From the NCBI GenBank assembly GCA_005503335.1, contig SCMQ01000011.1, positions 1 through 64,000 of the forward strand: a stretch of DNA of 64,000 nt. The letters are read 5' to 3'. This DNA is from Comamonadaceae bacterium 2FH (GTDB taxonomy: Bacteria; Pseudomonadota; Gammaproteobacteria; Burkholderiales; Burkholderiaceae_C). Positions 561 through 46,707 of the stretch are shown piece by piece. The stretch's first letter is position 1; every line of letters starts with the position of its first letter. The notes under the pieces were generated by a model. That model saw nothing but the letters and a program-made list of their open reading frames with translations. It did not search any database and was not told the DNA's origin. A program made the position numbers and the translations under genes.

Positions 561-579
561 GGCTGTTCTCCTCGAATAA

Positions 580-1527: not shown

Positions 1528-1536
1528 GGCGACACC

Positions 1537-2511: not shown

Positions 2512-2515
2512 GGCA

Positions 2516-3880
<1,365 letters not shown>

Positions 3881-3932
3881 GATGCACTCCTCCCCCGGCC
3901 ACTGCCGGGATCCAACATTGCATTCCGAGGTT

Positions 3933-5126: not shown

Positions 5127-5136
5127 AAACAATCAA

Positions 5137-5703
5137 TCAGGGCCTGAAACCCAGGCTCTCGGCCGGCATACGAACCGTAGACAACGGAATTTTCAGGCCT
5201 GCCAAGTCGGCGTCGAAAAGGCTGACCAGCGGGACAAATGACACGAGCTGGTCTGACTGGCAACTGCTTCCCGTACTAAGACAGACCTCCACGAATCGGA
5301 TGCAAGAGCTGGTGCGCTCGGAATCGAGGCAGGCGGAGATATTGTCACCCGGGCTCACCGGCATCGGACTCGCCACATTTCCTGCAGCGTTCAGATAGCG
5401 TATGACTACATGAGCATTCGTCACCTCTGGCGCAGCCGGTAGCGAACCGGCGTTGGATCGAAAAACGGCCGAATACTTGATTTTGTCGGTCTCGGTTGAC
5501 AGCGAGAAATCGGTGACAACCGCTTGACGTGCCGCATTGCGGGTCACCTCCTGTACCGTATTCCACAGAAACAGTAATCGTCCAAACTCGATCGCCCCCA
5601 GAAGCATTACAAGGAATGGCAGCAGCACCAAGGCAAATTCAACGGCGGCGACACCGCGCCATGACTTTTTCATCCTCCTCGCAGGTAAATGGGGCGAACG
5701 CAT
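5137..5703 (-). CDS. tadE: TadE-type pseudopilin
   Basis: A 188-residue minor pilin-like protein. After a basic leader (KKSWRG) comes the TadE motif VAAVEFALVLLPFLVMLL, with Glu at +5 of the presumed TadV cleavage site after Gly, then a Cys-containing periplasmic domain. TadE and TadF are processed by TadV and help initiate the pilus. ATG at 5703 follows a GAGG ribosome site; a later ATG at 5673 is directly preceded by AGGAGG with no spacing and is less likely. It starts 8 bases after the neighbouring pseudopilin gene ends. The gene appears less GC-rich than the window's housekeeping genes. Confidence 0.88.
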   Translation of the reverse strand: MRSPHLPARRMKKSWRGVAAVEFALVLLPFLVMLLGAIEFGRLLFLWNTVQEVTRNAARQAVVTDFSLSTETDKIKYSAVFRSNAGSLPAAPEVTNAHVVIRYLNAAGNVASPMPVSPGDNISACLDSERTSSCIRFVEVCLSTGSSCQSDQLVSFVPLVSLFDADLAGLKIPLSTVRMPAESLGFRP

Positions 5704-5711
5704 GATCAACC

Positions 5712-6212
5712 TCAGTTCATGTAGCGCATGGTGGTGTGAGGGGCTATGCCTACAGTGCCGTAGTCGATGACACCGCTTGCACTGACAAAAGGAAACCAGG
5801 CATCCAAGCTCAGGCTAAAGCCGCTGATCCTGACCCTCACGTTGTTGGGCGCAGTACCGTCTACGCAGGACACCGTGGAAAAGGTGCTGTTAAGGCACTC
5901 GACCACCACGTTACCTGTGACCAATGCTGGATTGACGTTAGCAGCGTTCGCGTTGCTGATTACCATGTCGCGTGCAGCAATGACTCCCGCACTGTTGACC
6001 GTGCCGACCGGCCAGGTGGAAAGCAGCCGCGCGCCATCCCGGGTGGCCTTGGTCAATGCATCGGCATACCAGAAGGCACGGCCGAAGGCGATGGTCCCGG
6101 CAACGATCAGCAAGAGCACGAAGATCACGAAGGCCAGTTCCACAGCTGCAGCACCGCGCTGGCGATGCATCCGCTGAGTTGATGGGAGATTTCTCGTACT
6201 CATGGCGATCAT
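5712..6212 (-). CDS. TadE/TadF-like pseudopilin
   Basis: A 166-residue second pseudopilin with leader RQRG followed by AAAVELAFVIFVLLLIVAG, again with the conserved Glu at +5, and a periplasmic domain with one Cys pair. Its position between TadG and TadE suggests the TadF role, but sequence alone does not separate TadE from TadF. The start overlaps the tadG stop as ATGA at 6209-6212, implying translational coupling; a second ATG three codons later (6203) is an alternative start. Neither has a strong ribosome site, which favours coupling. Confidence 0.85.
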   Translation of the reverse strand: MIAMSTRNLPSTQRMHRQRGAAAVELAFVIFVLLLIVAGTIAFGRAFWYADALTKATRDGARLLSTWPVGTVNSAGVIAARDMVISNANAANVNPALVTGNVVVECLNSTFSTVSCVDGTAPNNVRVRISGFSLSLDAWFPFVSASGVIDYGTVGIAPHTTMRYMN

Positions 6213-7696
6213 CTGTACAGCTTGATGTCGGCGACCGGGACGGGATCGATCAACCCGGCAAACTCCACATACAGCTTCTTTGGGGAGTTGACAGCGGGAA
6301 CCTGCATGAAGAATTTTCCAATGCCCAATACCGGAATGGCCATGCAGGCGCCCGTGCCAGTGATCAGCGGGCAATTCGCGATCGCCAGATTCAGGACTCG
6401 CCGATTGGCAAGCCCTGGGTTGCCGGTCGGCGCGGTGGTATGGGAGGGGTCTTGATAGGGCGAACCCGTTGCCGGGACCGGGAAATTCGCATTGGTTGCC
6501 GGGGCACCGCCCGGTGTCGAATAGAGGGTCGCCCAATCTCCAGTCGCGTAACTGGTACCGGGTATGAAGCTGGTTGTGTCATCCGGATCGACCACGCCGC
6601 GCACCGCACGGCTATAGGACCACAGCACACCGTATTGTTCTGGAAGCGGCACGGCAGGCGGCAGGCTCGGGTTGATTATGTGTTGAGTCGCGGGCGCAGA
6701 CGCAGGTGTCATCCAGTCCGCCGCGGGGAGGGGGGGGCTCGGACATAAGTCGCCCTCCTTGCAAGCAAAATTTTGAATATTGATATCGGGCGGCGCTTGG
6801 GCCGGTATGCACACCGAAGCGCCACCGTAGACATTGAACCGGGAGTTCAACGCCGCCTGAATTTTTCCCCACGAATAACCAGTGTTACCCCAGACGGTTC
6901 CTGGTGTGGTGGTCAGAATGGCCGAGGAACCACCGCAAACGAACGGCGCCGTGATGTTGGCGCTCGAGTTGGCCGGGTCGCAGGGGTTGGGATGGATGTC
7001 AACCGGGTCCAGCAGGTAGGTGTCGGCCGGCGAGCCCAACGGGCCCAGATTGAAAAGGTCATAACTGACCCCGCGCCTGAAGCCAAACTGCGCCAGCTCG
7101 CGCGACCCGTCAGGAAAGGTGGGACCGATCAGCTCTCCCTTCGCTGTGCTGATGGCGCAGATGCCTATGGGGGTGATGTCGTTGATGAACCGCCCCGCCA
7201 CGGCCCGACCGTACGTGGTAGTGGCAGCGGTGCCAGTGTCGCCGGAAGCCGTGGGAATCATGGCAAAAAAAGTCGGAAGGTTGCCAGACGGAATATCGAC
7301 CTTGATGAAGGTCTTGTTGGAAGCCTCGCCATCGGTATCGACGGTGCTGGCGGCGACCATGCACACATCGTCGGGACAATGCCCGACGCTGATGTCGGCG
7401 ATGGTGATGGTCACGGGTGTCGAAAACTTGAAATCGTTCTGCGCCGCCATGGCGATGGCGAAACTCACGGCACTGGTCACGCCGGCGGCGGTCTGGTTCA
7501 GCTGCTTCGCGCCGGCCAGTGCCGCCGCGTCTGCCGCGTTCTGCAGCTCCGTGCGGACCACGTAGGTGCGTCCCAGGTCCACCACCAAGGCCAGGAAGCC
7601 AAAAAGCACGAAGATGGAGAGTCCAAGGACGATGGCCACGGCGCCGCGTTGCCGCCGGGCCCTGACACCTGTTCGAAAAATTGACTGAACTCTCAT
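6209..7696 (-). CDS. tadG: TadG-like pilus assembly protein
   Basis: A 495-residue protein opening with the Tad/TadG N-terminal segment: RRQRGAVAIVLGLSIFVLFG followed by LALVVDLGRTYVV and LQNAADAAALAGAKQLN. That is one membrane helix followed by the conserved NAADAAALA block. The long periplasmic part carries several Cys residues, a Pro-rich stretch near PPLPAADWMTP, and no recognisable von Willebrand domain that I can see. TadG proteins are envelope components of the machine. ATG at 7696 has GGAG upstream; the frame is open further upstream (to 7747) without a good start. It ends in a 4-base overlap with the next pseudopilin gene. Confidence 0.88.
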   Translation of the reverse strand: MRVQSIFRTGVRARRQRGAVAIVLGLSIFVLFGFLALVVDLGRTYVVRTELQNAADAAALAGAKQLNQTAAGVTSAVSFAIAMAAQNDFKFSTPVTITIADISVGHCPDDVCMVAASTVDTDGEASNKTFIKVDIPSGNLPTFFAMIPTASGDTGTAATTTYGRAVAGRFINDITPIGICAISTAKGELIGPTFPDGSRELAQFGFRRGVSYDLFNLGPLGSPADTYLLDPVDIHPNPCDPANSSANITAPFVCGGSSAILTTTPGTVWGNTGYSWGKIQAALNSRFNVYGGASVCIPAQAPPDINIQNFACKEGDLCPSPPLPAADWMTPASAPATQHIINPSLPPAVPLPEQYGVLWSYSRAVRGVVDPDDTTSFIPGTSYATGDWATLYSTPGGAPATNANFPVPATGSPYQDPSHTTAPTGNPGLANRRVLNLAIANCPLITGTGACMAIPVLGIGKFFMQVPAVNSPKKLYVEFAGLIDPVPVADIKLYR

Positions 7697-7730
7697 GATT
7701 GCCGCTCCACTGGCATCGGGTGCCGCTTCG

Positions 7731-8021
7731 TTAGAGGCTGCCCCCAATATTCAGGATCTCGAAGGTCTTGGGCGGCGACTTGAACGAATCCTGATACCGC
7801 TCCATCGCCGCCGAGCCGGCTTGGCCGTCGATGCCCTTGACCGGATCACGGTTGGCCGAGGCTTGCGGGTTCAGCGTTTGCGCAGCGCGCGCCGCGCGCA
7901 CGGCCTCGCCGAAATGGCTGTCCGCCACGGGCGTCGTGCTGGCACAGCCCGCGAACAGGGCCATCGTCCCCAGGAGGGGCAGTACCCGTCCGCGTTGGGC
8001 AAAGAATTGAGCAAGTGACAT
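7731..8021 (-). CDS. small lipoprotein of the tad locus, function unknown
   Basis: A 96-residue protein with a signal peptide ending in lipobox FAGC (LLGTMALFAGCASTTPVAD), so probably a lipoprotein. The mature part is short, charged and Ala/Gln-rich, ending SFKSPPKTFEILNIGGSL. It starts 12 bases after the rcpA stop with a good AAGGAG site, so it belongs to the operon. Its place beside the secretin recalls small outer-membrane partners such as CpaD/RcpB, but it is much shorter and I see no clear homology. A secretin pilotin or accessory role is inference only. Confidence 0.75.
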   Translation of the reverse strand: MSLAQFFAQRGRVLPLLGTMALFAGCASTTPVADSHFGEAVRAARAAQTLNPQASANRDPVKGIDGQAGSAAMERYQDSFKSPPKTFEILNIGGSL

Positions 8022-8033
8022 GATGAGCTCTCC

Positions 8034-9608
8034 TTACTTGACTTCCATGCCGCCGGCCGCGGGCGCCGCAGCGGGGGTGACGGGTGCATTGCGCTTGTCA
8101 GCCGGTATCTCCTCGTGGCCCGAGCCTTCCAGCTTGTTGCCCAGGTAGAACTCGCTGCGGTTAGGAGGCATGTAGCTGTCGGTGGGCAGGATGTAGTTGG
8201 GCTCGAGCGGCTTGACCAGGCGAGGCGTGATCACGAACATGAGTTCGCTGCGGTCGCCTTGGAACTCATTGCTGCGAAACAGCGCACCCAGCACCGGCAC
8301 CTCACCCAGGCCCGGCACGCGCTCCACCGCCTGCTTGACGTTGTTCTTGATCAGGCCAGCGATGGCCAGGCTTTGCCCGTCCATCAGCTGCACCGAGGTC
8401 TGGACCTTGCGCGTCGTGAAGCTGGGCAGCACGGACGTGACCCCCCCCACCGTGGTGAAGGGCGAGCCGGTCTGCGAGAGCTCGGACACCTCGGGGGCGA
8501 CCTTGAGGTGGATGCGCCCGCCCTCGAGCACCGTTGGCGTGAATTTCACCCCCACGCCGAATTCCTTTTCCTCCAGCGTGATGGTCGTCCCGCCTGTGGT
8601 CTCGTTGCTGCGCGCGACGGGGATGAAGATCTTGCCACCCGCCAGGAAGCTGGCCTCCTGCCCGCTGATGGCCACGATGTTGGGTTCGGCCAGGACCTTG
8701 ACCAGGCCGTCGTTTTTCTCGGCGTCGATCGCGATGCCATTGCCGTTGGTGCTCTTGATCGCCGAGAGCAGTCCCGAGCCACCGGACAGCAGTTCCGACA
8801 GGATGCCGAAGGTCCAGTTGCCGTTGGTGCGCGAGGCGCTGAAGCGGGCGCCCAGCCTGTCAATCAAGGTCTTGGAGACCTCGGCCACGGTCACCTCCAG
8901 CATCACCTGCTGGGCCTCGGCGATCTGCAACAGGTTCACCACTTTGCCACCGGCTGCACCGCCGGCCCCACCACGCCCCCCTCCGATAGACGTGCCGGGC
9001 GCGACTCGCGTGCTGCCCGCGACCACCGGGAGCGCCATGCTCCGGTTGACATCACGCACAAAGGCGTTGGCGATGTCCTCCGCATAACGAGCCTTGACGG
9101 CGCTGGACACCACACCCGTCAGGATCACCGAGTCGGCCGCCGGCCGCACCTTGATGCCCTTCTCCTCCGGCATCAGCTCGTTGATCTTTCTCTCCATGCG
9201 CTGGTAGTCGATGTTGACGTTGAGGTCCACCGCCGTCGCGCCCGAACCCTTGCGCCAGATGATCATGTTGGTCGAGCCATAGGTCTTGCCCAGCAGGTAG
9301 AGCTCGGTAGGGCTGATCAAGGTGACGTCGGCGATGCTGGGGTCGCCCAGCGAGATGCGCTCTGCCGGCGACGGCAGGCGCAAAAGCGTGGATTTGCCGA
9401 TGATGAGGTCCATCGACGGCCCGACGGTGGAAAAGTCGATTCCGCTGGGCACCCTGGCTGGTGCCGAACCGGCCGGCGCAGGGCGACTGGTGGTCACGCC
9501 CTTGGTCACAGCCGGCGTCTGCGCCTGTCCGGAAGCCGTTGCCAGCAAGGCCACCAGGGCGAACCCCAGGCCAGCAGCCAGGGGCGTATGGGCAGTGTTC
9601 TTCTTCAT
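8034..9608 (-). CDS. rcpA: RcpA/CpaC, outer-membrane secretin of the Flp pilus
   Basis: A 524-residue protein with a signal peptide (residues 1-29, ending SGQAQ), an N-terminal pilus-secretin domain (SLGDPSIADVTLISPTELYL), a BON-like segment around residues 140-190, and the type II/III secretion secretin core. The core signature RVPGLGEVPVLGALFRSNEF is followed by SELMFVITPRLV. A Gly-rich linker (GGGRGGAGGAAGGK) lies near residue 215. It forms the outer-membrane channel for the pilus. A strong GGAGG site precedes the ATG. It follows rcpC by 10 bases. Confidence 0.94.
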   Translation of the reverse strand: MKKNTAHTPLAAGLGFALVALLATASGQAQTPAVTKGVTTSRPAPAGSAPARVPSGIDFSTVGPSMDLIIGKSTLLRLPSPAERISLGDPSIADVTLISPTELYLLGKTYGSTNMIIWRKGSGATAVDLNVNIDYQRMERKINELMPEEKGIKVRPAADSVILTGVVSSAVKARYAEDIANAFVRDVNRSMALPVVAGSTRVAPGTSIGGGRGGAGGAAGGKVVNLLQIAEAQQVMLEVTVAEVSKTLIDRLGARFSASRTNGNWTFGILSELLSGGSGLLSAIKSTNGNGIAIDAEKNDGLVKVLAEPNIVAISGQEASFLAGGKIFIPVARSNETTGGTTITLEEKEFGVGVKFTPTVLEGGRIHLKVAPEVSELSQTGSPFTTVGGVTSVLPSFTTRKVQTSVQLMDGQSLAIAGLIKNNVKQAVERVPGLGEVPVLGALFRSNEFQGDRSELMFVITPRLVKPLEPNYILPTDSYMPPNRSEFYLGNKLEGSGHEEIPADKRNAPVTPAAAPAAGGMEVK

Positions 9609-9618
9609 GGGGGCCTCC

Positions 9619-10467
9619 TCAGAAATCGGAATTGGCTTTTTGGATGCCGCGAATCATTTCGACGCGTTCCGACGGCTCCGCGACGGGCGCGCGTACAGTG
9701 CGTTTGACGGGCCTTGGCGCGGCCCTGGCCACGACCGCCTTGGCCGCGGACGCGACTGGCGTGGGCTCCTGAGCCAGCAGGTCTTCCTGGCGCGCGCCAG
9801 CAGTCGTGGCATCCTTGAGGTCAACTTGGTTGCGTAGTACCAGCGACAACGTCCCAATATTACGTGCCAAGTCGATCTTCTCGGCCTGCTCGGGCGTGAC
9901 CTCGAGCGTGACGGCGTTCACCACCTTGGGTTTGGTCTCGTCGCGGTTGGCCTCCTGCGCCACGGCCAACACCAGGATGCGTTCGAGCACGATCTTGGAG
10001 ATGGTTCCAGACCGGCCGCCTGAACGGTTCTCCTGGACGTTGACCAACAGGTCCACGTAGCTGCCCGGCACCAGGAAGCCAGCCACGCCAACCACTTCAT
10101 TGACGCGGACGGTCATGGCGCGGTTACCCTCCTTGATGATGGAATCCAGCCCACCCTTGGTTCCCACTGCGGCGAGCTTGGGCTCCAGGACAGGTTCACC
10201 CTTGAATATCGAAGTTCGCACCACGCGGCCCTCAAGTTTTTTCGCCTCACGGTACGCCCCCACGGGTTCCGAGCCCGTGGGCCAGGCAATCTCTTGCAAC
10301 ATGCTGGGCTGAAGGGGCTGGCCCAGATCTAGGTCGCGGGTAGCCACGACAACCGTGGTGTTGCCACTGGCCGCCTGCTCGCCGAGCCAGCGGGCGGCCA
10401 GCAGCACGGCTGCCACACCGGTCAAGATAGACAACAACAGCATGATGAGGGCGCGTCTGCTTTTCAT
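9619..10467 (-). CDS. rcpC: RcpC/CpaB, Flp pilus assembly protein
   Basis: A 282-residue periplasmic protein anchored by an N-terminal helix (ALIMLLLSILTGVAAVLLAA). An SAF-like domain follows (VVVATRDLDLGQPLQPSML), then the CpaB core with VPGSYVDLLVNV and a C-terminal ATTAGARQEDLLAQE linker with basic tail. CpaB/RcpC proteins act beside the secretin. It lies 15 bases after the AAA+ ATPase gene and 10 before rcpA, the usual rcpC-rcpA order. The ATG at 10467 is preceded by GGAGA. Confidence 0.92.
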   Translation of the reverse strand: MKSRRALIMLLLSILTGVAAVLLAARWLGEQAASGNTTVVVATRDLDLGQPLQPSMLQEIAWPTGSEPVGAYREAKKLEGRVVRTSIFKGEPVLEPKLAAVGTKGGLDSIIKEGNRAMTVRVNEVVGVAGFLVPGSYVDLLVNVQENRSGGRSGTISKIVLERILVLAVAQEANRDETKPKVVNAVTLEVTPEQAEKIDLARNIGTLSLVLRNQVDLKDATTAGARQEDLLAQEPTPVASAAKAVVARAAPRPVKRTVRAPVAEPSERVEMIRGIQKANSDF

Positions 10468-10482
10468 GATGATCTCCTCTCC

Positions 10483-11826
10483 TCAATTCAGAGACTGTAC
10501 GGCTTCGGCAGACGCGGTGTCGTCCCCGCCGCCAAAATAAAGTTCCCAGGCCCATTCGATCAGCTCCGGCGTCATGCGCGGGGGCTCATCGAGGTAGCAC
10601 GCGCGGTCGGCGATCTTGCCGATGACGTCATGCGGTATGCAAGGGAAGTAGGAGCGGCCATGGCGTGGATGCAAGCCATCCACCAAATGGTCGATAGATG
10701 CTGCATCCGGCGGCACGCCGGCCCGGGCGCAGGCCTGGGTCACGACCTCGCGGTATTGCTCCGGGGAAAGTTCGGGCACATGGATCTTGTAGCCCAGGCG
10801 CCGCGCAAAGGCCGGGTCGACCAACTGTTCGGGCGACAGGTTGGACGAGAACACGACCTTCACGTCGAACGGCAGCTCGAACTTGATGCCACTGTGCAGG
10901 CCCAGGTAGTCCACCTTGCGGTCCAGCGGAACGATCCAGCGGTTCATGAGTTCGCGCGGCGCGACGCGCTGGCGGCCCAGGTCATCGATGACAAAGATAC
11001 CGTTGTTGGCCTTCATCTGCGGTGGCGCCACATGCACGCGCGTATGCGGGTCGTATTGCAGGTCCAGCATGGCCAAGGTCAGTTCCCCGCCTGCCACCAC
11101 CACCGGACGTTGCACCCGGACCCAGCGGCCGTCGGCCTCGCCCTCCAGCGCCAGGCTGCGGCCATTGTTCGCAGCTTCCGACACCGCGCGATGCACCGTT
11201 GGGTCGTAGAGCTGAACCACTTCACCTTCCACATAGAGCGCATGCGGCACGCGGATCGTGCCGTGCAGCGTCTTCACGAGGTGCTCGGCCAGGTAGGTCT
11301 TGCCCGAGCCGCTCTCGCCGTACAGGTACATGGCCTTGCCGGAGTTCATGGAGCCGCCCAGCGCAGGCAGCAGGGCCTCGTCGATCACCAGGTCACCCAG
11401 AGCCTCACGCAGATCGGCCACGCGCACGAAGGCAGCCTCACGGGCCTGGCGATGAATCTCGGTCACGTATTCAGACAAAGTGACCGGTGCAGGCCCCACA
11501 TACTGGCATTTCTCCATGGCCAGACGCGCTTGGCGATGACCGGTATCGGTCAGCGCATAACTCACGTCGCCATCCAGACTGCCACGGCGCGGCACTTCGA
11601 CCAATTGCAGGCTGCGCATCTTGATCAGCAGCGCGTCCGTAACCGCCCCGTTCACGCCCAGCAATTGCTTCATGGCCGCCAGCCGGAGCTCGCCTCGACG
11701 GGACAGGTGGCGCAGCGCCAACTCGGTCATGAAGCTGTCGGGCAAGCCCCCTGGCTCTGCGCCAGTCTTTTCACCGACGGACTGCGCGGCAGGGGCCGTG
11801 GTGTCGAGGGAATCCAGGTTCAGCAT
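10483..11826 (-). CDS. AAA+ ATPase with N-terminal winged-helix-like region, tad-associated
   Basis: A 447-residue protein of unassigned role. Residues about 30-100 look like a winged-helix fold (HLSRRGELRLAAMKQLLG...YALTDTGHRQARLAMEKC). The AAA+ core has Walker A GESGSGKT (170-177), Walker B IFVIDDL (277-283), a sensor-like VVFSSNLSP, and ARRLGYKI as a likely arginine-finger region. It is not the pilus motor; TadA is separate. It sits between the prepilin peptidase and rcpC in the same operon. Start 11826 has GGAGG; an upstream ATG (11868) would overlap tadV. A remodelling or regulatory role in pilus biogenesis is inference. Confidence 0.85.
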   Translation of the reverse strand: MLNLDSLDTTAPAAQSVGEKTGAEPGGLPDSFMTELALRHLSRRGELRLAAMKQLLGVNGAVTDALLIKMRSLQLVEVPRRGSLDGDVSYALTDTGHRQARLAMEKCQYVGPAPVTLSEYVTEIHRQAREAAFVRVADLREALGDLVIDEALLPALGGSMNSGKAMYLYGESGSGKTYLAEHLVKTLHGTIRVPHALYVEGEVVQLYDPTVHRAVSEAANNGRSLALEGEADGRWVRVQRPVVVAGGELTLAMLDLQYDPHTRVHVAPPQMKANNGIFVIDDLGRQRVAPRELMNRWIVPLDRKVDYLGLHSGIKFELPFDVKVVFSSNLSPEQLVDPAFARRLGYKIHVPELSPEQYREVVTQACARAGVPPDAASIDHLVDGLHPRHGRSYFPCIPHDVIGKIADRACYLDEPPRMTPELIEWAWELYFGGGDDTASAEAVQSLN

Positions 11827-11842
11827 GTTGCCCTCCTGCGCT

Positions 11843-12442
11843 TCAGAAACGGAACAACGGTGAGCCACCCAGCCACAGCCAGCTGCCGTAGGCCAGCAGA
11901 CCCGTCACCATGGCGAGCGCATAAGGCATGCGGTCCACGGAATGCTTGGCCGCGTCGAATTGGCGTGGGCCTCCGTGCAAGACAGGTGACAGTACGAGCA
12001 TGACATTGGCCATGACGTGCCTTGTCGTGCCCCCCAAAAGCATGCGCGCGACAGAGAGCACGCCCCCCATCAGGAGGATGACTACAGCGACATTGAGCGT
12101 GTCGGCGGGACCGGCAAAGCTGCCGATGCCGGCCATGAGCTTGACGTCGCCCGCACCCATGGCACGTAGCGCGTAAAGCGGAAGGAACAGGGTCAGACCT
12201 GTCAGGGCGCCAGCCAGCACCCCTTTGGCGCCGAGTGCACCCGGCCGGTCGCTGAACAGTCCGCCGGCATCGTTGACCGGACCCAAGACATGAGTCAGCA
12301 GGCCCGCGCACAGCGTCAGAAGTATGAGCTTGTTGGGAATGCAGCGCCGGCGCAGATCCGTCAGCAGCGCTGCGAGCATGATCAGCGCAAGGGCCGAGAG
12401 GCTCCAGAACTGCCAAACCGCAGGAGAGACATCAAACTTCAT
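11843..12442 (-). CDS. tadV: TadV/CpaA prepilin peptidase
   Basis: A 199-residue polytopic aspartyl protease (A24 family) that cleaves the leader of Flp pilins and pseudopilins. The two catalytic aspartates are visible: D29 in LLTDLRRRCIPN and D99 in the GxGD-type motif GAGDVKLMAGIG. Six or so membrane helices span the protein. It lacks the N-terminal methylase domain of PilD-type enzymes, as expected for TadV. A GGGAGG ribosome site precedes the ATG. Its likely substrates are the two Flp genes just upstream plus the two TadE/F proteins downstream. Confidence 0.93.
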   Translation of the reverse strand: MKFDVSPAVWQFWSLSALALIMLAALLTDLRRRCIPNKLILLTLCAGLLTHVLGPVNDAGGLFSDRPGALGAKGVLAGALTGLTLFLPLYALRAMGAGDVKLMAGIGSFAGPADTLNVAVVILLMGGVLSVARMLLGGTTRHVMANVMLVLSPVLHGGPRQFDAAKHSVDRMPYALAMVTGLLAYGSWLWLGGSPLFRF

Positions 12443-12555
12443 CCCTACCTCCCTTCGCTGACCAATTCGAGAATGCTTGCGAAATCGCCTACTCGTACCA
12501 GCCAGCGCCGTTCCGCTATCTGCGCATCATGTCGATCCGCTTAGACAGAGTGGTT

Positions 12556-12762
12556 TCAGTTTCCAAGCACCGACTCAATCGCAGCGCTCAGTTTCGCTGC
12601 CCATGCCGTCCAGGAGTCACCGTTCGCGCCACCAGCGGCAGAAACGCCGGCAACAATGGCAATGGCAATCAAGGACGCAAGCAGTGCATACTCAATCGAA
12701 GTGACGCCCCGCTGGGCAGCTCTTCGCGATACGGCAACTGCTCTGCCAAGGCGGGGCTTCAT
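12556..12762 (-). CDS. second Flp-type pilin
   Basis: A 68-residue Flp/Fap pilin paralogue. A basic leader ending AAQRG precedes VTSIEYALLASLIAIAIVAG, with Glu-Tyr at +5/+6 of the predicted TadV cleavage site after Gly. A Trp-containing C-terminus (DSWTAWAAKLSAAIESVLGN) differs from the first pilin. GGAGAG lies 4 bases before ATG 12762; the frame is open further upstream but without support. It is 84 bases downstream of the first flp gene. It could be an alternative major pilin or a minor one; sequence does not decide. Confidence 0.88.
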   Translation of the reverse strand: MKPRLGRAVAVSRRAAQRGVTSIEYALLASLIAIAIVAGVSAAGGANGDSWTAWAAKLSAAIESVLGN

Positions 12763-12846
12763 GACACTCTCCGTTGTAACTGACAGATATTCCGGCAAGC
12801 AATAATTTGGGCTCATCATTGCTTGCCTCATATCAGCTGTCAATCG

Positions 12847-13020
12847 TCATGAGAGAGCGTTAGCAACTTCCTGGAACGTGTTGTTCAGGTCTTGGCCAAC
12901 GAGCGAGACAGCGGCGATGATGACGATGGCGATCAACGCCGCGATCAGGCCGTACTCGATCGCGGTCACGCCCTCTTCGTCGCGCAGGAAGCGGCGCGTC
13001 GCCAGAATGATTTTTTCCAT
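12847..13020 (-). CDS. flp: Flp major pilin
   Basis: A 57-residue Flp prepilin: leader MEKIILATRRFLRDEEG, cleavage expected after Gly17, then the Flp motif VTAIEYGLIAALIAIVIIAA and a short tail QDLNNTFQEVANALS. As the first gene of the locus and the closest to the Flp consensus, it is the likely major subunit. AGGAG lies upstream of ATG 13020. An in-frame upstream start at 13050 would add a non-pilin leader and is rejected. The 250 bases before it should hold the operon promoter. Confidence 0.93.
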   Translation of the reverse strand: MEKIILATRRFLRDEEGVTAIEYGLIAALIAIVIIAAVSLVGQDLNNTFQEVANALS

Positions 13021-13270
13021 GATGCAACTCCTGAGTTCCAAGTGAAACATCCCTCGCTCCCCATGAGCGACAGATGGCTTTGCCGTAGCCTCTGAAAACC
13101 ACCGACGCCCCCCGACTGGGATGCCAGCAACTTCCTCTGTCTACGGTTTCATTCTGTTCGGCGAGGCCTGTGTTGCCTATACCTCAAACTGGGTATTCGA
13201 AGCGAAGTAAAGGCCGCCCGCGCTGTCCGCACGAGGAAGGATTGATTCAGGGCAAAGGACGCACTTCGTA
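13021..13270 (-). promoter_or_regulatory. leader and promoter region of flp, with palindrome at 13179-13196
   Basis: This gap separates the flp start (13020) from the end of the histidine kinase gene (13271). It contains an inverted repeat, ATACC...GGTAT with 8 bases between arms, at 13179-13196. Read as two heptamers (TACCTCA, AA, CTGGGTA) it resembles the 7-2-7 layout used by NarL/LuxR-type regulators, each half one base off the TACYYMT rule. It lies about 160 bases before the flp ATG. I could not fix a convincing -35/-10 pair. Control by the neighbouring response regulator is inference. Confidence 0.4.
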
Positions 13271-34903: not shown

Positions 34904-35623
34904 ATGCTGCACAGTCCCTGCTCTCCCGCCGCCAACTTCCTGCAAAGCCAGCCCTGGCACGCCAGCCTGGCGCCCGAGGAGCAGCTGCGCGTCCTCGAGC
35001 GCCTGACGCTGGTCGAGGGGGGCAAGGGCGACTGCCTGCTGCCCTTGGGGGCGCAGGTCCAGGGCTGGTACGCCGTGCTGTCGGGCCTGGTCAAGCTGCA
35101 AAGCGCCTCGGCCGAAGGGCGGGTCCAGGCCTTCCTGGGCGTTCCCGCCGGCGAATGGTTCGGCGAGGGCTCGGCGCTCAAGGCCGAGCGCCGGCGCTAC
35201 GACGTGATCGCCCTGCGCGACACCACCCTGCTGTGCCTGCCGCTGCCGGTGTTCGAGGCACTGCGCCAGTCCAGCCTGGCCTTCAACCAGTACCTGGTGG
35301 CCCACCTGAACCGCCGCCTGGGCCAGGCCATGGCGCTGATCGAGGCCGAGCGGCTGCGCTCGGCCGAAGAACGCGTGGCGCTGTACCTGAGCCGGGTGTT
35401 CTGGCCGGGCGCGCGCCGCCTCAGCCTGTCGCAGGAGGAGCTGGGCCACCTGACCGGCCTGTCGCGCCAGACCGTCAACCGCGTGCTGGGCCAGATGGCG
35501 CGCCAGGGCCTGGTGTCGCTGAAGTTCGGCCGGGTGGATATCCTGGACGAGCCCGCGCTGCTGGGCCACGAGGCGGGCAAAAGCCCTGGCGCGCCCAAGC
35601 CTGTGGGCGGCCGGGGACAATAG
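34904..35623 (+). CDS. Crp/Fnr-family transcriptional regulator
   Basis: A 239-residue regulator with an N-terminal cyclic-nucleotide-binding-like beta-barrel ([20 protein letters not shown], then [11 protein letters not shown]), a dimerisation helix ([20 protein letters not shown]) and a C-terminal winged helix ([20 protein letters not shown]). The FNR cysteine cluster is absent (only two Cys occur), so oxygen sensing by FeS is unlikely. It is divergent from the acyl-CoA ligase and 4 bases before selO. It may regulate the catabolic cluster or its own operon. Confidence 0.88.
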
Positions 35624-39799: not shown

Positions 39800-41809
39800 A
39801 TGCTGAGACTCGCCAAATGGAGCGCCGTGCTGGCGCTGGTTCTGGGACTGCTGCTGGCGGCAGGCGCTCTGTTCATCGCCCGTTTCGACTGGAACCTGGC
39901 CCGCCCCTGGCTCAACGTCACGGTGTCCCAGGCCACGGGCCGGCCGTTTTCCGTCGAGGGCGAACTCTCGGTGCGCTGGCAGTGGCCGCAGCAGGGGCCG
40001 GAGACCGGCTGGCGGCGCTGGCTGCCGGCGCCCACGGTGACGGCGCGGCAGCTGGTGCTGGGCGATCCCCTCTCCGCGGCGCCGCCACTGGCACCGGCCT
40101 CCGCGCCGGCCATGGTCCGCGTCGAGCAGGTCCGCGCCCATGTCGCACTGCTGCCGCTGCTGCGCCGGCAAATCCTGGTCCGCGACCTGGTGCTGACCCG
40201 GCCCGAGTTGTGGCTGCGCCGCGCCAGCGACGGCCGCCACAACTGGAGCTTCGCCTTGCCCCCCGCCTCGGATGCCGATGCCGGCTGGCGCGTGCGGCTG
40301 CAGACCCTGGTCATAGGCGAGGGCCGGCTGGCGCTGGAAGACGCGCTCAAGGACCTGCACCTGCAGGCCCAGTTCGACACCCTGCCCCCGGCACCTGCGG
40401 GCTCGCCGGCCAGCGCCTACGGCCTGGCTTTCCGCTTCAGCGGCCGTCACGTCAAGGCCCCGTTGACAGGGTCGGGCCAGGCGGGCCATATCCTCTCGCT
40501 GGGCGCGGCACGGCTGCGTTTTCCGCTGTTGCTGCAGGCGCAGACCGGCAAGCTGCAGCTGCGCGCCGAGGGTGTGCTGCGCGAGCCGGCGGCACTGGCC
40601 GGCATGGACCTGCGCGTGGCGCTCAGCGGGCGCAGCATGGCCGACCTGTTCCCCCTGACCGGCCTGGTGCTGCCCGAGACGCCGCCGTTCCAGACCAGCG
40701 GCCGCCTGGTCGGCAGCCTCAAGCCCGAGCAGGCGGTGTGGGACTACCGCGACTTCAGCGGCCGGGTGGGCGACAGCGACCTGCACGGCAACCTGACCTA
40801 CACCTCGCGCAAGCCGCGCCCGCTGCTGGAAGGCACCATGTTCTCGCGCCGGCTGCGCCTGGCGGACCTGGGGCCGCTGATCGGAGCGAACAGCGAGACG
40901 GCGCGCCGGGCCAAGGTGCTGCCCAACGACGCCTTTGCCACTGCGCGCTGGAAGACCATGGACCTGGACCTGCGCTTCAGCGGCGAGCAGATCGTGCGCG
41001 ATGCCCGCCTGCCGCTCGAGCGGCTCAGCGTGCATGCGCGCCTGGAGGACGCCGTGCTGACGCTGGCGCCGCTGCGCTTCGGCATCGCCAGCGGGCAGCT
41101 GGACTCCGAGCTGCGGCTGGACGCGCGCAGCCAGCCGCTCAAGAGCAGCCTGCGCGGCGAGGTGCGCGCGCTCAAGCTGGCCGACCTGTTCCCCAAGGTG
41201 GCCCTGATGCAAAAGAGCTTCGGCCAGATGGACGGCGCGCTGGCGCTGCAGGCCACAGGCGACTCGGTGGCGCGCATGCTCGGCAGCAGCACGGGCGAGG
41301 TCAAGCTCTATGTGCGCGACGGCGTGCTGAGCAAGCAGCTGCTGGACCTGGCGGCGCTCAACCTGGGCAGCGTGCTGGTGAGCCGGCTGTTCGGCACCGA
41401 CCGCGAGGTCAAGCTGCGCTGCGCGGTGGCCGACCTGCCGGTGCGCGATGGCCTGGTGCAGATCCGCAACCTCAAGCTCAGCACCGACGAAGCCCTGGTG
41501 GACGTGACCGGCACGGCCAACCTGGCGACCGAGCAGCTGGACCTGCACATCCGCCCCGAGTCGCTGGGCCTGAAACTGCTGTCGCTGCGTACCCCGCTCT
41601 ACGCCCGTGGCAGCTTTGCCGATCCCCAGGTCGGCCTGGAAAAGGGGCCGCTGCTGCTGCGCGCGGGCGCCGCCGTGGCGCTGGCCGCGCTCTCGCCGGT
41701 GGCCATGGCCGCCCTGCCCGTCACCGTGCCGGGCGCCGAGGACGACGCGCAGTGCAAGCCACTGCTGGCGGCGGCGAAGCTCCGGCCTTCGTCCGCCGCC
41801 GGGCGTTAG
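39800..41809 (+). CDS. AsmA-family envelope protein
   Basis: A 669-residue protein with one N-terminal membrane anchor (LAKWSAVLALVLGLLLAAGA), then the AsmA/TamB-like beta-rich repeat architecture: LNVTVSQATGRPFSVEGELS near the start and VDVTGTANLATEQLDLHIRP near the end. AsmA-like proteins bridge the periplasm and are thought to move phospholipids to the outer membrane. The C-terminus has a hydrophobic Ala-rich segment near residue 635. ATG has a nearby GCAGGG. It stands alone, flanked by non-coding regions. Confidence 0.88.
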   Translation: MLRLAKWSAVLALVLGLLLAAGALFIARFDWNLARPWLNVTVSQATGRPFSVEGELSVRWQWPQQGPETGWRRWLPAPTVTARQLVLGDPLSAAPPLAPASAPAMVRVEQVRAHVALLPLLRRQILVRDLVLTRPELWLRRASDGRHNWSFALPPASDADAGWRVRLQTLVIGEGRLALEDALKDLHLQAQFDTLPPAPAGSPASAYGLAFRFSGRHVKAPLTGSGQAGHILSLGAARLRFPLLLQAQTGKLQLRAEGVLREPAALAGMDLRVALSGRSMADLFPLTGLVLPETPPFQTSGRLVGSLKPEQAVWDYRDFSGRVGDSDLHGNLTYTSRKPRPLLEGTMFSRRLRLADLGPLIGANSETARRAKVLPNDAFATARWKTMDLDLRFSGEQIVRDARLPLERLSVHARLEDAVLTLAPLRFGIASGQLDSELRLDARSQPLKSSLRGEVRALKLADLFPKVALMQKSFGQMDGALALQATGDSVARMLGSSTGEVKLYVRDGVLSKQLLDLAALNLGSVLVSRLFGTDREVKLRCAVADLPVRDGLVQIRNLKLSTDEALVDVTGTANLATEQLDLHIRPESLGLKLLSLRTPLYARGSFADPQVGLEKGPLLLRAGAAVALAALSPVAMAALPVTVPGAEDDAQCKPLLAAAKLRPSSAAGR

Positions 41810-41883
41810 GCCCTGAGCCTTTGCCCCAGGCAAGCCAAGGGCGTGAGCGGGGTGCAGGGCGCGGCGCGCGCCGAACCCAACCC

Positions 41884-42066
41884 TTGACGCTGATCAACGG
41901 CCACGACAAACTGGGCTTGCGTTTCGACTGCAAGCCCTGTGAAATGCACGTGGTGGGCAAGATCCGGCGCTCGGTGCTGAACCAGGCGCCTGCCGTGCCC
42001 ATGAAGTTCTACAAGACCCGGCCGGAGGCCTCGCCCTCCCGAGGCCGGCATGAAAGGAGTCTGGCC
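41884..42066 (+). other. coding-like segment in frame before the universal stress protein
   Basis: 61 codons from TTG 41884 run open and in frame into the usp start at 42067. The translation includes LTLINGHDKLGLRFDCKPCE and QAPAVPMKFYKTRPEAS, and third codon positions are mostly G or C, as in real genes here. There is no ribosome site before TTG 41884, while usp has a clear GGAG. It may be an N-terminal extension, a remnant, or an uncharacterised small protein lacking its own stop. The preceding 74 bases (41810-41883) show nothing. Confidence 0.4.
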
Positions 42067-42546
42067 ATGAAAATCCTGCTACCCGTGGACGGCTCCGAAC
42101 TTTCCCTGCACGAGGTGCGCTTCGCGCTGCGCCTGGTGGCCCAGGGCCTGCAGGCCAGCTTCCTGCTGGCCAACGCGCAGGAGCCGGCCAGCCTCTACGA
42201 AATCGTCAAGGCGCCCGACGCCGAGGTGCTGGAAAACGTGAGCCACGCCGCCGGCGAGCACCTGCTGGCGTCGGCCGAGGCGCTGCTGCACGACGCCGGC
42301 ATCGCCTACGAGCACGAGGTGGTCACGGGCGACCCGGCCCACGCCATGCTGGAGCTGATCGAGCGCCACGGCTGCGACATGGTGATCATGGGCACCCACG
42401 GCCTGGGCGTGCTGCGCACCGCCTTCCAAGGCTCGGTGGCGCAGATGCTGGTGCAGTCCTCGCCGGTCCCCGTGCTGCTGGTCAAGCCCCCCGAGGAAGC
42501 GTCCACCGAGGAAGAAGCGGAAGCCGGCGCCGACGAAGGCGCATGA
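42067..42546 (+). CDS. universal stress protein (UspA family)
   Basis: A 159-residue cytoplasmic stress protein: MKILLPVDGSELSLHEVRFA, then the nucleotide-binding motif GTHGLGVLRTAFQGSVAQ (the G-2X-G-9X-G(S/T) pattern, implying ATP binding) and VPVLLVKPPEE. The acidic C-terminal tail (EEASTEEEAEAGADEGA) is an addition. GGAG lies 7 bases before ATG. It opens the four-gene operon and overlaps the ATPase start as ATGA. Confidence 0.92.
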   Translation: MKILLPVDGSELSLHEVRFALRLVAQGLQASFLLANAQEPASLYEIVKAPDAEVLENVSHAAGEHLLASAEALLHDAGIAYEHEVVTGDPAHAMLELIERHGCDMVIMGTHGLGVLRTAFQGSVAQMLVQSSPVPVLLVKPPEEASTEEEAEAGADEGA

Positions 42547-45230
42547 GGGTCGGCAGCGACTGGCATCTGCGCGAGGCGCAAGAGCTGGCCAGCGAGCAAG
42601 GCGTCGATCCAGCCAGCGGCCTGCACGCCGACGAGGCCCTGCGCCGCGCCAGCCTGCATGGCCGCAACCTGCTGGCCACGCAGGCGCCGCGCAGCGCCTG
42701 GACCCTGCTGGCCGAGCAGTTCGGCGATTTCATGATCCTGGTGCTGATCGCCGCGGCCGTAGTCTCGGGCCTGGTCGGCGACCTGGTCGACACCCTGGTG
42801 ATCCTGGTGATCGTGCTCTTGAACGCACTGATCGGCTTCGTCCAGGCCTGGCGCGCGGACCGCGCGATGGCGGCGCTGCGCCAGCTGGCGGCCGCCCAGG
42901 CGACGGTGCTGCGCGGCGGCGAGCCGCATCTGGTGCCGGCCAGCAGCCTGGTGCCGGGCGACATCGTGCTGCTCGAGGCGGGCAACCAGGTGCCGGCCGA
43001 CCTGAGGCTGATCGAGATTTCCCAGCTCAAGGTCGACGAGTCGGCGCTGACCGGCGAGTCGGTCTCGGTGGAAAAGCGGAGCGCGGCGCTGGACCGCGGG
43101 GCCCATGCGCTGGGCGACCGGCTCAACATGGCCTTCAAGGGCACGACCGCCACGCACGGACGCGGCCGGGGCCTGGTGGTCGCCACCGGCATGGCGACCG
43201 AGCTGGGCAAGGTGGCACGCCTGATGGCGCAGGCCGAGGACCGCAGCACACCGCTGCAGCGCCGCCTGGCGGCCTTCGGCCAGCGCCTGGCCTGGGCGGT
43301 GCTGGCCATCTGCGCCGTGGTCTTCGTGGTCGGCGTGCTGCGCGGCGAGGCGCCGATGCTGATGATGCTGACCGCGATCAGCCTGGCGGTGGCGGCGATT
43401 CCGGAGGCGCTGCCGGCCGTGGTCACGGTGCTGCTGGCCCTGGGCGCGCGCCGCATGGTGACGCTCAATGCGCTGATCCGGCGCCTGCCCTCGGTCGAAA
43501 CCCTGGGCTCGGTGACCCACATCTGCTCCGACAAGACCGGCACCCTGACCCAGAACCGCATGCACGTGGAATGGCTGCTGGTCCAGGGCCGGCGCTGGAC
43601 GCCCGGCGATCCGCTGCCCGGCCCCGCCCATGGCGAGGCGCTGCGCGCCGCCGCGCTGTGCAACGACGCCCGGTGCCAAGCCGCGGCCGCCCATGGCGAA
43701 GGCAGCTGGCTGGGCGACCCGACCGAGACCGCCCTGGTGCTGGCGGCCCATGCAGGCGGGCTGGACAAGACGCAGCTCGAGCGCGACAACCCGCGCGTGC
43801 AGGAGCAGCCCTTCGACGCCGAGCGCAAGCGCATGACCACCTTCCACCGCGCGGCAACGGCGGCCGGCGGCGGTTTCGTGGCCTACACCAAGGGAGCGCC
43901 CGAGTCGGTGCTGCCGCGCTGCGTGGCGCAGTGGACGCCGCAGGGGCCGGTCGCGCTGGACCGCGCCGCGGCGCTGGAGACCGCCCAGGCCCTGGCGGCC
44001 CAGGGCCTGCGCGTGCTGGCTCTGGCCAGGCGCGACCATGGCCGGCTGCCCGACACCAACGCGCTCGAGACGGTGGAGGACGCGCTCGAGCTGCTGGGCC
44101 TGGTCGCCCTGATCGATCCGCCGCGGCCCGAGGCCGCCGCCGCGGTGCGCGACTGCATGGGCGCCGGCATCACGCCCGTCATGATCACCGGCGACCACCC
44201 GGCCACGGCGCGCGCCATCGCCCTGCGCCTGGGCATCGTGAGCCAGGCCGACGCCCCGGTGCTGACCGGCGCCGAGCTGGCCGGGCTCGACCAGGCGCTG
44301 CTGAGCGCCCGCGTGCTGCAGGTGCGCGTCTACGCGCGCGTCGACCCGGCGCAGAAGATACGCATCGTCGAGGCCCTGCAGGCGCATGGCCGCTTCGTCG
44401 CCATGACCGGTGACGGCGTCAACGACGCGCCGGCCCTCAAGCAGGCCGACATCGGCGTGGCCATGGGCCGCGGCGGCACCGACGTGGCGCGCGAGGCCGC
44501 CAGCCTGGTGCTGCTGGACGACAACTTCGCCACCATCGTGGCGGCCGTGCGCGAGGGCCGGCGCATCTACGACAACATCCGCAAGTTCGTGCGCTACACC
44601 ATGACCAGCAACTCGGGCGAGATCTGGACCATCTTCCTCGCCCCGCTGCTGGGCCTGCCGATCCCGCTGCTGCCCATCCACATCCTCTGGGTCAACCTGG
44701 TCACCGACGGCCTGCCGGGACTGGCCCTGGCGGCCGAGCCGGGCGAGCGCGGCCTGATGCAGAGGCCGCCACGGCCGCCCGGCGAGAGCCTGTTCGCCCA
44801 CGGCCTGTGGCAGCATGTGCTGGGGGTCGGCCTGCTGTTCGGCGGCCTGTGCCTGGCCGTGCAGGCCTGGGCCCTCGCTGGCGGCCACGCGCACTGGCAG
44901 ACCATGGTATTCACCGTGCTGACCCTGGGCCAGATGGCCCATGTGCTGGCGATCCGCTCGGAAACCGAGCCGCTGTGGCGCCTCGGCCTGGGCTCCAACC
45001 GGCCGCTGCTGGCCGCCGTGCTGCTGACCTTCGCGCTGCAGATGGCGACCATCTACGTGCCCCTGCTCAACCCCATCTTCAAGACCCAGCCGCTGTCCGC
45101 CGCGGAGCTGGCGATCTGCCTGGGCGCCGCCGCCCTGGTCTGGCTGGCGGTCGAACTCGAGAAGGCCTGGCGCCGGCAGCGCGCGCGGCCGCTCGAGGAT
45201 TTCGCCGCCGACGCGCCGCTGAAGCCATGA
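42543..45230 (+). CDS. P2A-type cation-transporting ATPase (Ca2+/Mn2+-like)
   Basis: An 895-residue P-type ATPase with cation-ATPase N-domain, TGES (170-173), phosphorylation site Asp330 in CSDKTGTLTQN and hinge TGDGVNDAPALKQADIG. Ion-site residues match SERCA: Glu288 in AAIPEALP (M4), Asn690 and Glu693 in SNSGE (M5), and Asn718, Thr721, Asp722 in VNLVTDG (M6). This favours Ca2+ or Mn2+ export rather than Na+/K+ or heavy metals. It lies between a usp and terC with 4-base overlaps on both sides. Confidence 0.92.
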   Translation: MRVGSDWHLREAQELASEQGVDPASGLHADEALRRASLHGRNLLATQAPRSAWTLLAEQFGDFMILVLIAAAVVSGLVGDLVDTLVILVIVLLNALIGFVQAWRADRAMAALRQLAAAQATVLRGGEPHLVPASSLVPGDIVLLEAGNQVPADLRLIEISQLKVDESALTGESVSVEKRSAALDRGAHALGDRLNMAFKGTTATHGRGRGLVVATGMATELGKVARLMAQAEDRSTPLQRRLAAFGQRLAWAVLAICAVVFVVGVLRGEAPMLMMLTAISLAVAAIPEALPAVVTVLLALGARRMVTLNALIRRLPSVETLGSVTHICSDKTGTLTQNRMHVEWLLVQGRRWTPGDPLPGPAHGEALRAAALCNDARCQAAAAHGEGSWLGDPTETALVLAAHAGGLDKTQLERDNPRVQEQPFDAERKRMTTFHRAATAAGGGFVAYTKGAPESVLPRCVAQWTPQGPVALDRAAALETAQALAAQGLRVLALARRDHGRLPDTNALETVEDALELLGLVALIDPPRPEAAAAVRDCMGAGITPVMITGDHPATARAIALRLGIVSQADAPVLTGAELAGLDQALLSARVLQVRVYARVDPAQKIRIVEALQAHGRFVAMTGDGVNDAPALKQADIGVAMGRGGTDVAREAASLVLLDDNFATIVAAVREGRRIYDNIRKFVRYTMTSNSGEIWTIFLAPLLGLPIPLLPIHILWVNLVTDGLPGLALAAEPGERGLMQRPPRPPGESLFAHGLWQHVLGVGLLFGGLCLAVQAWALAGGHAHWQTMVFTVLTLGQMAHVLAIRSETEPLWRLGLGSNRPLLAAVLLTFALQMATIYVPLLNPIFKTQPLSAAELAICLGAAALVWLAVELEKAWRRQRARPLEDFAADAPLKP

Positions 45231-46204
45231 ACCCGCTGAGCATCGGCGAACCCTGGATGTGGAGCGCCTTCATCGCCTTCCTGGTCGCGGTGCTGGCGCT
45301 GGACCTGTTCGTCTTCGGCGGGCGCCTCGCGCACCGCGTGTCCGTGCGCGAGGCGCTGGCCTGGGTCGGCGCCTGGCTGGCCCTGGCGCTGGGCTTCGCG
45401 GCCCTGCTGTGGTGGTACCTGGACCAAAGATTCGGCGCCGAGATCGCGCAGCGCAAGACGCTGGAGTTCCTGACCGGCTACCTGATCGAGCAGTCGCTGT
45501 CGATCGACAACATGTTCGTCTTCGTCATGATCTTCGGCTATTTCGCGGTGCCGCCGGAGTTGCAGCGCCGCGTGCTGCTGTACGGCGTGCTGGGCGCCAT
45601 CGTCATGCGCGCCGTGATGATCCTGGCCGGCGTCTGGCTGGTGCAGGAGTTCGCCTGGCTGCTCCATGTGTTCGGCGCCATCCTGGTCTTCACCGGCGTC
45701 AAGATGCTGATCTTCGCCAAGCGGGCCCCCGACCTGGAAAAGAACCCCCTGCTGCGCTGGCTGCGCGCCCGCTTGCGCATCACCGAGGGCTTTCGCGGCG
45801 AGCGCTTCTTCGTGCGCGAGAGCGGCCTGCGCTGGGCGACGCCTATGTTCCTGGTGCTGGTGCTGATCGAGGCCAGCGACCTGGTGTTCGCGATCGACAG
45901 CATTCCGGCCATCTTCGCCGTCACCACCGACCCCTTCATCGCCTTCACCTCCAACATTTTCGCCATCATGGGCCTGCGTGCGCTGTACTTCGTGCTCGCC
46001 GACATGGCGGGCCGCTTCTACCTGCTCAGGTACGGGCTGGCCATGGTGCTGGTGTTCATCGGCGGCAAGATGCTGGCCGGGCGCTGGGTCCACATGCCTA
46101 TCCAGTGGTCGCTGGCCATCGTCGGCGGCATCATCCTGGTGTCCGTGATATTGAGCCTCGCCCTGCCCAAGGGCAACCAGCACGTGACGGGGGAAGAACC
46201 ATGA
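45227..46204 (+). CDS. TerC/Alx-family membrane protein
   Basis: A 325-residue protein with about nine membrane helices. The family's acidic intramembrane motifs are present: LIEQSLSIDNMFVFVMIFGY and EASDLVFAIDSIPAIFAVTT. TerC-family proteins (Alx, MeeF/YkoY) are linked to Mn2+ export or to metal supply at the membrane; others relate to tellurite resistance. The ATG overlaps the ATPase stop and the stop overlaps the next usp start, both as ATGA, so a shared metal-handling task with the ATPase is likely. Confidence 0.92.
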   Translation: MNPLSIGEPWMWSAFIAFLVAVLALDLFVFGGRLAHRVSVREALAWVGAWLALALGFAALLWWYLDQRFGAEIAQRKTLEFLTGYLIEQSLSIDNMFVFVMIFGYFAVPPELQRRVLLYGVLGAIVMRAVMILAGVWLVQEFAWLLHVFGAILVFTGVKMLIFAKRAPDLEKNPLLRWLRARLRITEGFRGERFFVRESGLRWATPMFLVLVLIEASDLVFAIDSIPAIFAVTTDPFIAFTSNIFAIMGLRALYFVLADMAGRFYLLRYGLAMVLVFIGGKMLAGRWVHMPIQWSLAIVGGIILVSVILSLALPKGNQHVTGEEP

Positions 46205-46707
46205 AGCAGGCACAGCCACCGGCGACGCCGGCCCGGACCGAGCGCGACGGCGACGCGCGCCTGGTGGGCGTCGTCCTGGACGGCGCCAAACCCTTGCCGC
46301 CCCAGCCGGACGACACATGGCTGGTCGCCATCGACGGCTCCCAGCATTCGCTGCGCGCGGCCGCCCAGGCCGCCCAGCTGGCCAAGCGAGGCAGGCACTG
46401 CGCCATCCATCTGGTGCATGTGCAGCCCTGGCTCAGCAAGGAGGCGGCCGAGATCGAGTTGGCGCAGCGGGGCTGGGAGGCCACGGCCGAGGCCCGCGCG
46501 CTGCTCGACCGCAGCGGTATCGCCTGGCGCCTGCATGTGCTGATGGGCGACCCAGCCGAGCGCATCGCGGCGCTGGGCGCCGAACTCGGCTGCCGCGGCA
46601 TCGCGATCGGCAGCCAGGGGGTGGGCGCGACCGTGGGCCTGCTGCTGGGCTCGGTCGCCTACAAGCTGCTGCACCTGAGCCAGACGCCGGTGCTGCTGGT
46701 GCGCTGA
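46201..46707 (+). CDS. universal stress protein, second copy in the operon
   Basis: A 168-residue UspA-family protein with a 37-residue polar N-terminal extension (KQAQPPATPARTERDGDARL) before WLVAIDGSQHSLRAAAQAA. The ATP-binding pattern GSQGVGATVGLLLGSVAYKL is present, followed by TPVLLVR. It differs strongly from the first usp of the operon, so it is not a recent duplication. It ends the operon; the next gene is convergent, 26 bases away. Confidence 0.92.
   Translation: MKQAQPPATPARTERDGDARLVGVVLDGAKPLPPQPDDTWLVAIDGSQHSLRAAAQAAQLAKRGRHCAIHLVHVQPWLSKEAAEIELAQRGWEATAEARALLDRSGIAWRLHVLMGDPAERIAALGAELGCRGIAIGSQGVGATVGLLLGSVAYKLLHLSQTPVLLVR

Follow-up and report, generated by a model that had tools for sequence, protein, structure and literature searches.

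Several described systems resemble parts of the locus analysed here, a set of four genes (usp1, a P2A-type cation ATPase gene, terC and usp2) within a 64,000-nucleotide (nt) stretch of Comamonadaceae bacterium 2FH (contig SCMQ01000011.1, positions 1 to 64,000; hereafter the window). One of them is CtpF of Mycobacterium tuberculosis; a universal stress protein (Usp) gene presumably adjoins ctpF, and to our knowledge no TerC protein is known to accompany CtpF. The available passages of PMC9180918, which do not mention such a Usp gene, describe CtpF as a Ca2+-exporting P-type ATPase under the low-oxygen regulator DosR, and the protein has been termed P2A (PMC7525011). The likeness lies in the Ca2+-exporting P2A class and in a low-oxygen regulator, both of which are predicted from sequence for the window ATPase, whereas the phylum and the regulator (DosR) are different. 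With respect to the Usp genes, uspA_1 and uspA_2 of the related betaproteobacterium Herbaspirillum seropedicae are Fnr targets activated at low oxygen (PMC5934665), and FNR control of uspA has been predicted in Accumulibacter (PMC6446978). However, “ATPase” and “TerC” are absent from the main text of PMC5934665, while the window Usp genes are in one operon with the genes of two transporters. The low-oxygen-activated locus lxa of Burkholderia cenocepacia, which belongs to the same bacterial order, contains six Usp genes (PMC6127331) and in this respect resembles the window cluster, for which low-oxygen induction is predicted. Unlike a four-gene operon, lxa spans about 50 gene numbers, and the main text of that paper contains none of the terms “P-type ATPase”, “cation” and “TerC”. 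Finally, the TerC proteins Alx, MeeF and MeeY have been linked to Mn (PMC10550928); the window TerC belongs to the same family and passes the Alx-type model, but its gene has no riboswitch and belongs to an operon that also comprises Usp genes and is preceded by an FNR box. No description of this gene set, of which the earlier note on this DNA likewise knew none, was found in the open-licence literature (titles, beginnings of abstracts and passages).

We consider it probable, on balance, that the four genes (Table 1) constitute one FNR-controlled low-oxygen operon whose products would export Ca2+ and an Mn2+-like metal. The gene order proposed previously was confirmed by coordinates and by Pfam/TIGR families, as was, by reading the sequence, the ATGA overlap at all three junctions; the frames of all four genes are open. 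Such a -4 overlap was found in 199 of 1343 same-strand neighbour pairs (gene calls, fetched loci), so three in a row would occur by chance in about 0.3% of cases; the triple overlap is notable, though for an operon not rare. It argues for one operon, and not for the fixed protein ratio which had been deduced from it: the Shine-Dalgarno stretches (by eye) are strong before usp1 and usp2 and weak before terC. The upstream AsmA gene (39800-41809), next to the stump of a U32-peptidase gene, was not counted as a member, since this stump and the FNR box lie between it and usp1.

Table 1. Features of the usp1-ATPase-terC-usp2 locus in the window
Feature	Position	Strand	Description and basis
U32-peptidase gene, 3' stump	41822-42033	+	tblastn (41884-42033) and by eye in another frame (41822-41883)
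FNR-type box TTGACGCTGATCAA	41884-41897	+	pattern match within the U32 stump, 170 nt before usp1
Putative promoter TTGCGT-N17-TGAAAT	41917-41945	+	sequence inference and co-occurrence with the box in relatives
usp1	42067-42546	+	universal stress protein, 159 aa; PF00582, 90.9 bits
P2A-type cation (probably Ca2+) ATPase gene	42543-45230	+	895 aa; domain matches and alignments
terC	45227-46204	+	Alx-type TerC membrane protein, 325 aa; TIGR03718
usp2	46201-46707	+	universal stress protein, 168 aa, about 40 residues precede the Usp domain; PF00582, 84.1 bits from residue 41

The proposed control by oxygen is suggested by the FNR-type box. The pattern TTGAYNNNNRTCAA matches the window at this one place, against an expectation of 0.04, and 4 of 100 shuffled versions of the window contain a match. 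Downstream of the box, TTGCGT (41917) and TGAAAT (41940) are 17 nt apart, which would place the transcription start near 41952 and the box at -61.5. The whole genome (4.78 Mb) contains 27 FNR boxes, compared with 4 matches to a reversed control pattern, and three of its nine Usp genes have a box no more than 190 nt upstream (0.013 expected within 250 nt). It also encodes an Fnr protein which is canonical by its sequence, as judged from the score (237.2; NCBIfam cut-off 228) and the presence of the Cys cluster. Both a box upstream of the operon and an Fnr protein encoded in the genome are present, as would be expected for a member of an FNR regulon. The “stress-gated” module of the earlier note is accordingly better understood as one that FNR would switch on at low oxygen, to which the box and Fnr point. 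Another Crp/Fnr-family regulator encoded in the window (34904-35623) lacks, as judged by eye, the cysteine cluster of Fnr.

The box and the putative promoter are located inside the U32 stump, which is all that is left in the window of a decayed U32-peptidase gene. Its part 41884-42033 matches the 3' ends of U32 genes in loci L039-L043, L045-L047, L056, L067 and L068 (tblastn, 55-73% identity; family PF01136 confirmed in L047), and the C-terminal 259 residues of the L047 protein had no match in the organism's own draft genome at E<=1e-60. An in-frame extension upstream of usp1 (41884-42066), which might have lengthened the Usp or encoded a small protein of a new kind, gave no Pfam match and corresponds to the U32 stump. 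U32 relatives precede usp, exchanger or ATPase genes in several genomes, and the association of the box with this arrangement was examined on 73 distinct U32 3' ends, 18 with such a target gene within 300 nt downstream and 55 without (L289 and L309, which have no sequence anchor, and duplicate ends were dropped). The box together with TGTGAAAT was present in 8/18 ends with a target and in 0/55 without (p 3e-6); for the box alone the counts were 8/18 and 1/55. This box/-10 pattern had first been noticed on 12 ends, including that of the window, which are counted among the 73; without them it was found in 2/6 and 0/55 ends (p 0.008). The codons behind the pattern are uncommon in the 55 target-less ends (Leu TTG in 4/55, Cys TGT in 1/55). 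That the putative promoter has been kept within what remains of the decayed gene suggests that the switch itself is under selection. The box is also concentrated in front of the pump genes: upstream of P2A operon starts at 113 loci there are 15 boxes in 42 kb, versus 11 in the other 1378 kb, and in the fetched loci a box lies within 250 nt upstream of 11/107 ATPase and 6/73 Usp genes versus 14/1840 others.

The ATPase contains four cation-ATPase Pfam domains and a HAD hydrolase domain, with the phosphorylation motif DKTGT at D330. The candidate ion-site residues are E288 (M4), N690/E693 (M5), N718/T721/D722 (M6) and Q797 (M8), and the claim that the residues binding Ca2+ in SERCA are kept in M4, M5 and M6 was upheld. 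In an alignment of 108 residues with SERCA1, which covers M5-M6, the N..E of M5 and the NLVTD of M6 are retained, and the M4 stretch VAAIPEALP aligns with the Listeria Ca2+-ATPase LMCA1. At the M8 position the window ATPase has Gln797, where SERCA carries Glu. The closest solved chain is LMCA1 (E 6e-177), followed by SPCA1 and SERCA; LMCA1 nevertheless has Ala, Asn and Arg where the window ATPase has Glu693 (M5), Thr721 (M6) and Gln797 (M8). These nearest relatives, and the Na+/Ca2+-exchanger genes which recurrently adjoin related ATPase genes, support the Ca2+ export suggested earlier and make a Ca2+ pump the most likely identity of the ATPase.

The neighbourhood was compared at 115 other P2A loci: 32 of close relatives sharing 61-80% identity (299 genomes of the family searched), 17 from the order, 18 from the class and 48 more distant ones of the family, the last being part of the matches listed. 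The order sample comprises 17 of 18 close matches in 250 genomes (one fragment, G528, was dropped) and the class sample 18 of 19 in 293 genomes (fragment G589 was dropped, and second, more distant copies were left out). The ATPase gene has a Usp gene within 400 nt at 15/115 loci (close 4/32, order 4/17, class 0/18, distant 7/48), a Na+/Ca2+-exchanger gene at 17/115 (close 7/32, order 6/17, class 1/18, distant 3/48) and a TerC gene at 0/115. The 202 kb up to 900 nt from the ATPase gene contain 16 Usp matches and 17 exchanger matches, compared with 4 and 0, respectively, in the 592 kb farther than 2.5 kb away. Matches to PF01699 confirmed the exchanger family for L038 and L044, with L044 under the cut-off in calcium/sodium antiporter models. 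In L043 and L047 the usp1-ATPase pair has the same -4 overlap as in the window.

The TerC protein (PF03741) passes the Alx-type model TIGR03718 (400.8 bits, cut-off 246.4), in agreement with the family named in the earlier note, and its residues E88/D94 and D218/D224 are invariant in a six-row alignment; judging from its family, it probably exports Mn2+. Genome contigs were scanned with this alignment and the best 80 loci were kept. At 30 of them usp2 directly follows terC (tblastn), with an ATGA overlap in 26; gene calls also give 30, with L183 in and L174 out. These 30 loci are labelled as Betaproteobacteria, except L175 (Gammaproteobacteria only), and none of the 33 loci labelled Pseudomonas among the best 80 has usp2 after terC. 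In the single-contig genome G293 (L125:5404-6918), TerC (51%) and Usp are encoded by one 505-residue frame with both Pfam domains; since an ATG lies in frame at the joint, loss of a stop codon may account for it instead of a fusion. The exchanger-ATPase unit of G293 is located elsewhere in the genome (L040), apart from this frame. Among the best 80 terC loci no P2A ATPase gene adjoins terC (gene calls); the nearest is 2 genes away (L191), and some contigs end close by.

Some of the terC stretches have further features. LysR regulators (NhaR-like by eye; in L121 by Pfam) are encoded in L120-L123 and L133, an S30AE-like protein (just under the cut-off) and a bicarbonate transporter in L121, and in L122 the gene of a Crp/Fnr-type regulator overlaps terC. 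In L204 and L121 the FNR-type box TTGACTTGCATCAA is placed 78 nt upstream of another, second Usp gene.

Both Usp proteins of the window have the Usp domain PF00582 and, by eye, the G2xG9xG(S/T) ATP-binding pattern, as had been claimed. They had also been called unrelated, which does not fit the shared domain and the 34-37% identity of the usp2 product to four usp1 relatives. A link of Usp genes to each of the two transporters, for its part, does recur in the P2A and terC surveys described above. Any action of Usp1 and Usp2 on the neighbouring transporters is a guess, and the L125 frame is the only hint that Usp proteins may bind or gate them. An extended reading would make Usp1 a dedicated ATP-sensing subunit of the P2A pump and Usp2 one of TerC, so that an FNR-switched export unit would track cellular ATP under oxygen limitation. 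This we regard as unlikely; it is drawn from traces, namely the terC-usp2 overlap, the TerC-Usp frame and the repeated pairing of Usp with P2A.

The four-gene set looks local and was probably assembled from two smaller gene sets which recur in related bacteria: usp/exchanger-ATPase and terC-usp2 modules are found apart elsewhere, so the window joins two modules. The operon is placed between ppiC and purL (Pfam), and in L044 a usp-exchanger-ATPase set occupies the same place, between ppiC-like and purL-like genes (by eye). A conserved four-gene system was rejected for the loci examined. The earlier note had taken an order unique to this genome as a sign against a functional module; no second case of usp-P2A-terC-usp was found in these loci, and to that extent the sign is present.

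A number of observations weigh against the proposed FNR-controlled export operon. In the window, a sigma-70 consensus scan reported no promoter at 41917-41945, the -10 hexamer TGAAAT is weak, and the looser pattern TTGAN6TCAA has at least one match in 15/100 window shuffles. The box is absent from 10/18 U32 ends with a usp, exchanger or ATPase target, a scan of 13 box-less loci (10 genomes) found no box anywhere, 98/113 P2A loci have none within 350 nt upstream, and the U32 genes that do carry it may have inherited it from a common ancestor. Within 250 nt upstream of terC (0/100) and of exchanger genes (0/15) in the fetched loci there is no box, so FNR control of the terC module is not seen elsewhere. 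The association of neighbours is weak beyond the order (Usp at 0/18 and exchanger at 1/18 class-level loci). No Rfam match to the yybP-ykoY/Mn2+ riboswitch was obtained at the gathering score in the window, nor any Mn2+ riboswitch match in the 14 of the 80 terC loci that were scanned, and control of terC by such a riboswitch was rejected. An upstream yybP-ykoY riboswitch is a feature of E. coli alx, and the TerC/Alx family model does not require one. The TerC tree places the window protein, which has a long branch, together with four proteins of Pseudomonas (97/85) that are without usp2, and this makes the history and origin of the window terC-usp2 pair unsure. The ATPase is below the curated Ca2+-pump cut-offs, both PMR1-type (686.6 < 798.3) and SERCA-type (650.9 < 703.4), and for this reason it is filed as P2A, with Ca2+ as the predicted ion. 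These scores give some room to transport of another ion, e.g. Mn2+, Na+ or Mg2+: of the models listed, the protein reaches the cut-off of the general P-type one (TIGR01494) and falls below those of all ion-specific ones, and the P2A site residues are also found in pumps of other ions. The SERCA-like residues of M5/M6, LMCA1 as the closest solved chain and the exchanger neighbours argue for Ca2+, and a different ion appears improbable.

The strongest competitor is simple co-regulation, according to which the four proteins would share a low-oxygen promoter and otherwise work independently, with the Usp proteins serving general survival and making no contact with the transporters. This is quite possible, if somewhat short of probable. 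FNR boxes occur at two other Usp genes of the genome, 100/115 P2A loci have no Usp gene within 400 nt, and usp1-type genes follow U32 genes in stretches without an ATPase match (L279, L280, L282, L293 and L323). It is less easily reconciled with the adjacency of Usp and P2A genes in two P2A clades, about 12-fold over the far flanks, and with the terC-usp2 pair, joined by ATGA at 26 of the best 80 loci and fused once. Alternatively, terC-usp2 might recently have landed behind usp1-ATPase by chance and be expressed by read-through, with no joint role. The finding of the four-gene order in this genome only, the lack of TerC next to the ATPase at the other 115 P2A loci, the long TerC branch with Pseudomonas neighbours and the fact that the genus is represented by one genome in the collection examined would all agree with such an event. 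Four open frames with three overlapping junctions speak against it, as does a different, more distant P2A clade found 2-5 genes from terC or terC-usp2 in L182, L191 and L219, nine genes off in L155 and on the same stretch as TerC in L133; we consider a chance assembly rather unlikely.

Outside this locus, the first part of the window (1-13050) contains a Tad/Flp pilus locus (secretin, T2SSE ATPase, Flp pilin) with a G+C content of about 0.62, compared with about 0.70.

Assuming an FNR-controlled operon, the following course of events can be proposed. When oxygen falls, Fnr would bind the box and, from about -61.5, activate the promoter inside the U32 remnant, by which the operon would be induced. 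The P2A ATPase would then export Ca2+, as suggested by its nearest relatives, by its site residues and by the exchanger genes that recur as neighbours, and TerC/Alx, by analogy with its family, would export Mn2+ or a similar divalent metal, or load exported proteins with metal. The two ATP-binding Usp proteins, co-produced at one per transporter, may act as partners that promote survival or sense ATP while energy is limiting. Comparison with the related loci suggests that, at the site between ppiC and purL, the operon originated when a terC-usp2 pair was placed immediately downstream of a usp1-ATPase unit, and that the upstream U32-peptidase gene decayed with its promoter-bearing 3' end kept.

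Little is known of what bacterial Ca2+ pumps and most universal stress proteins do. An FNR-type box before P2A pump genes is seen in several lineages, and together with the repeated pairing of Usp proteins with two different metal transporters it would allow a direct test of whether a Usp acts on a named neighbour.

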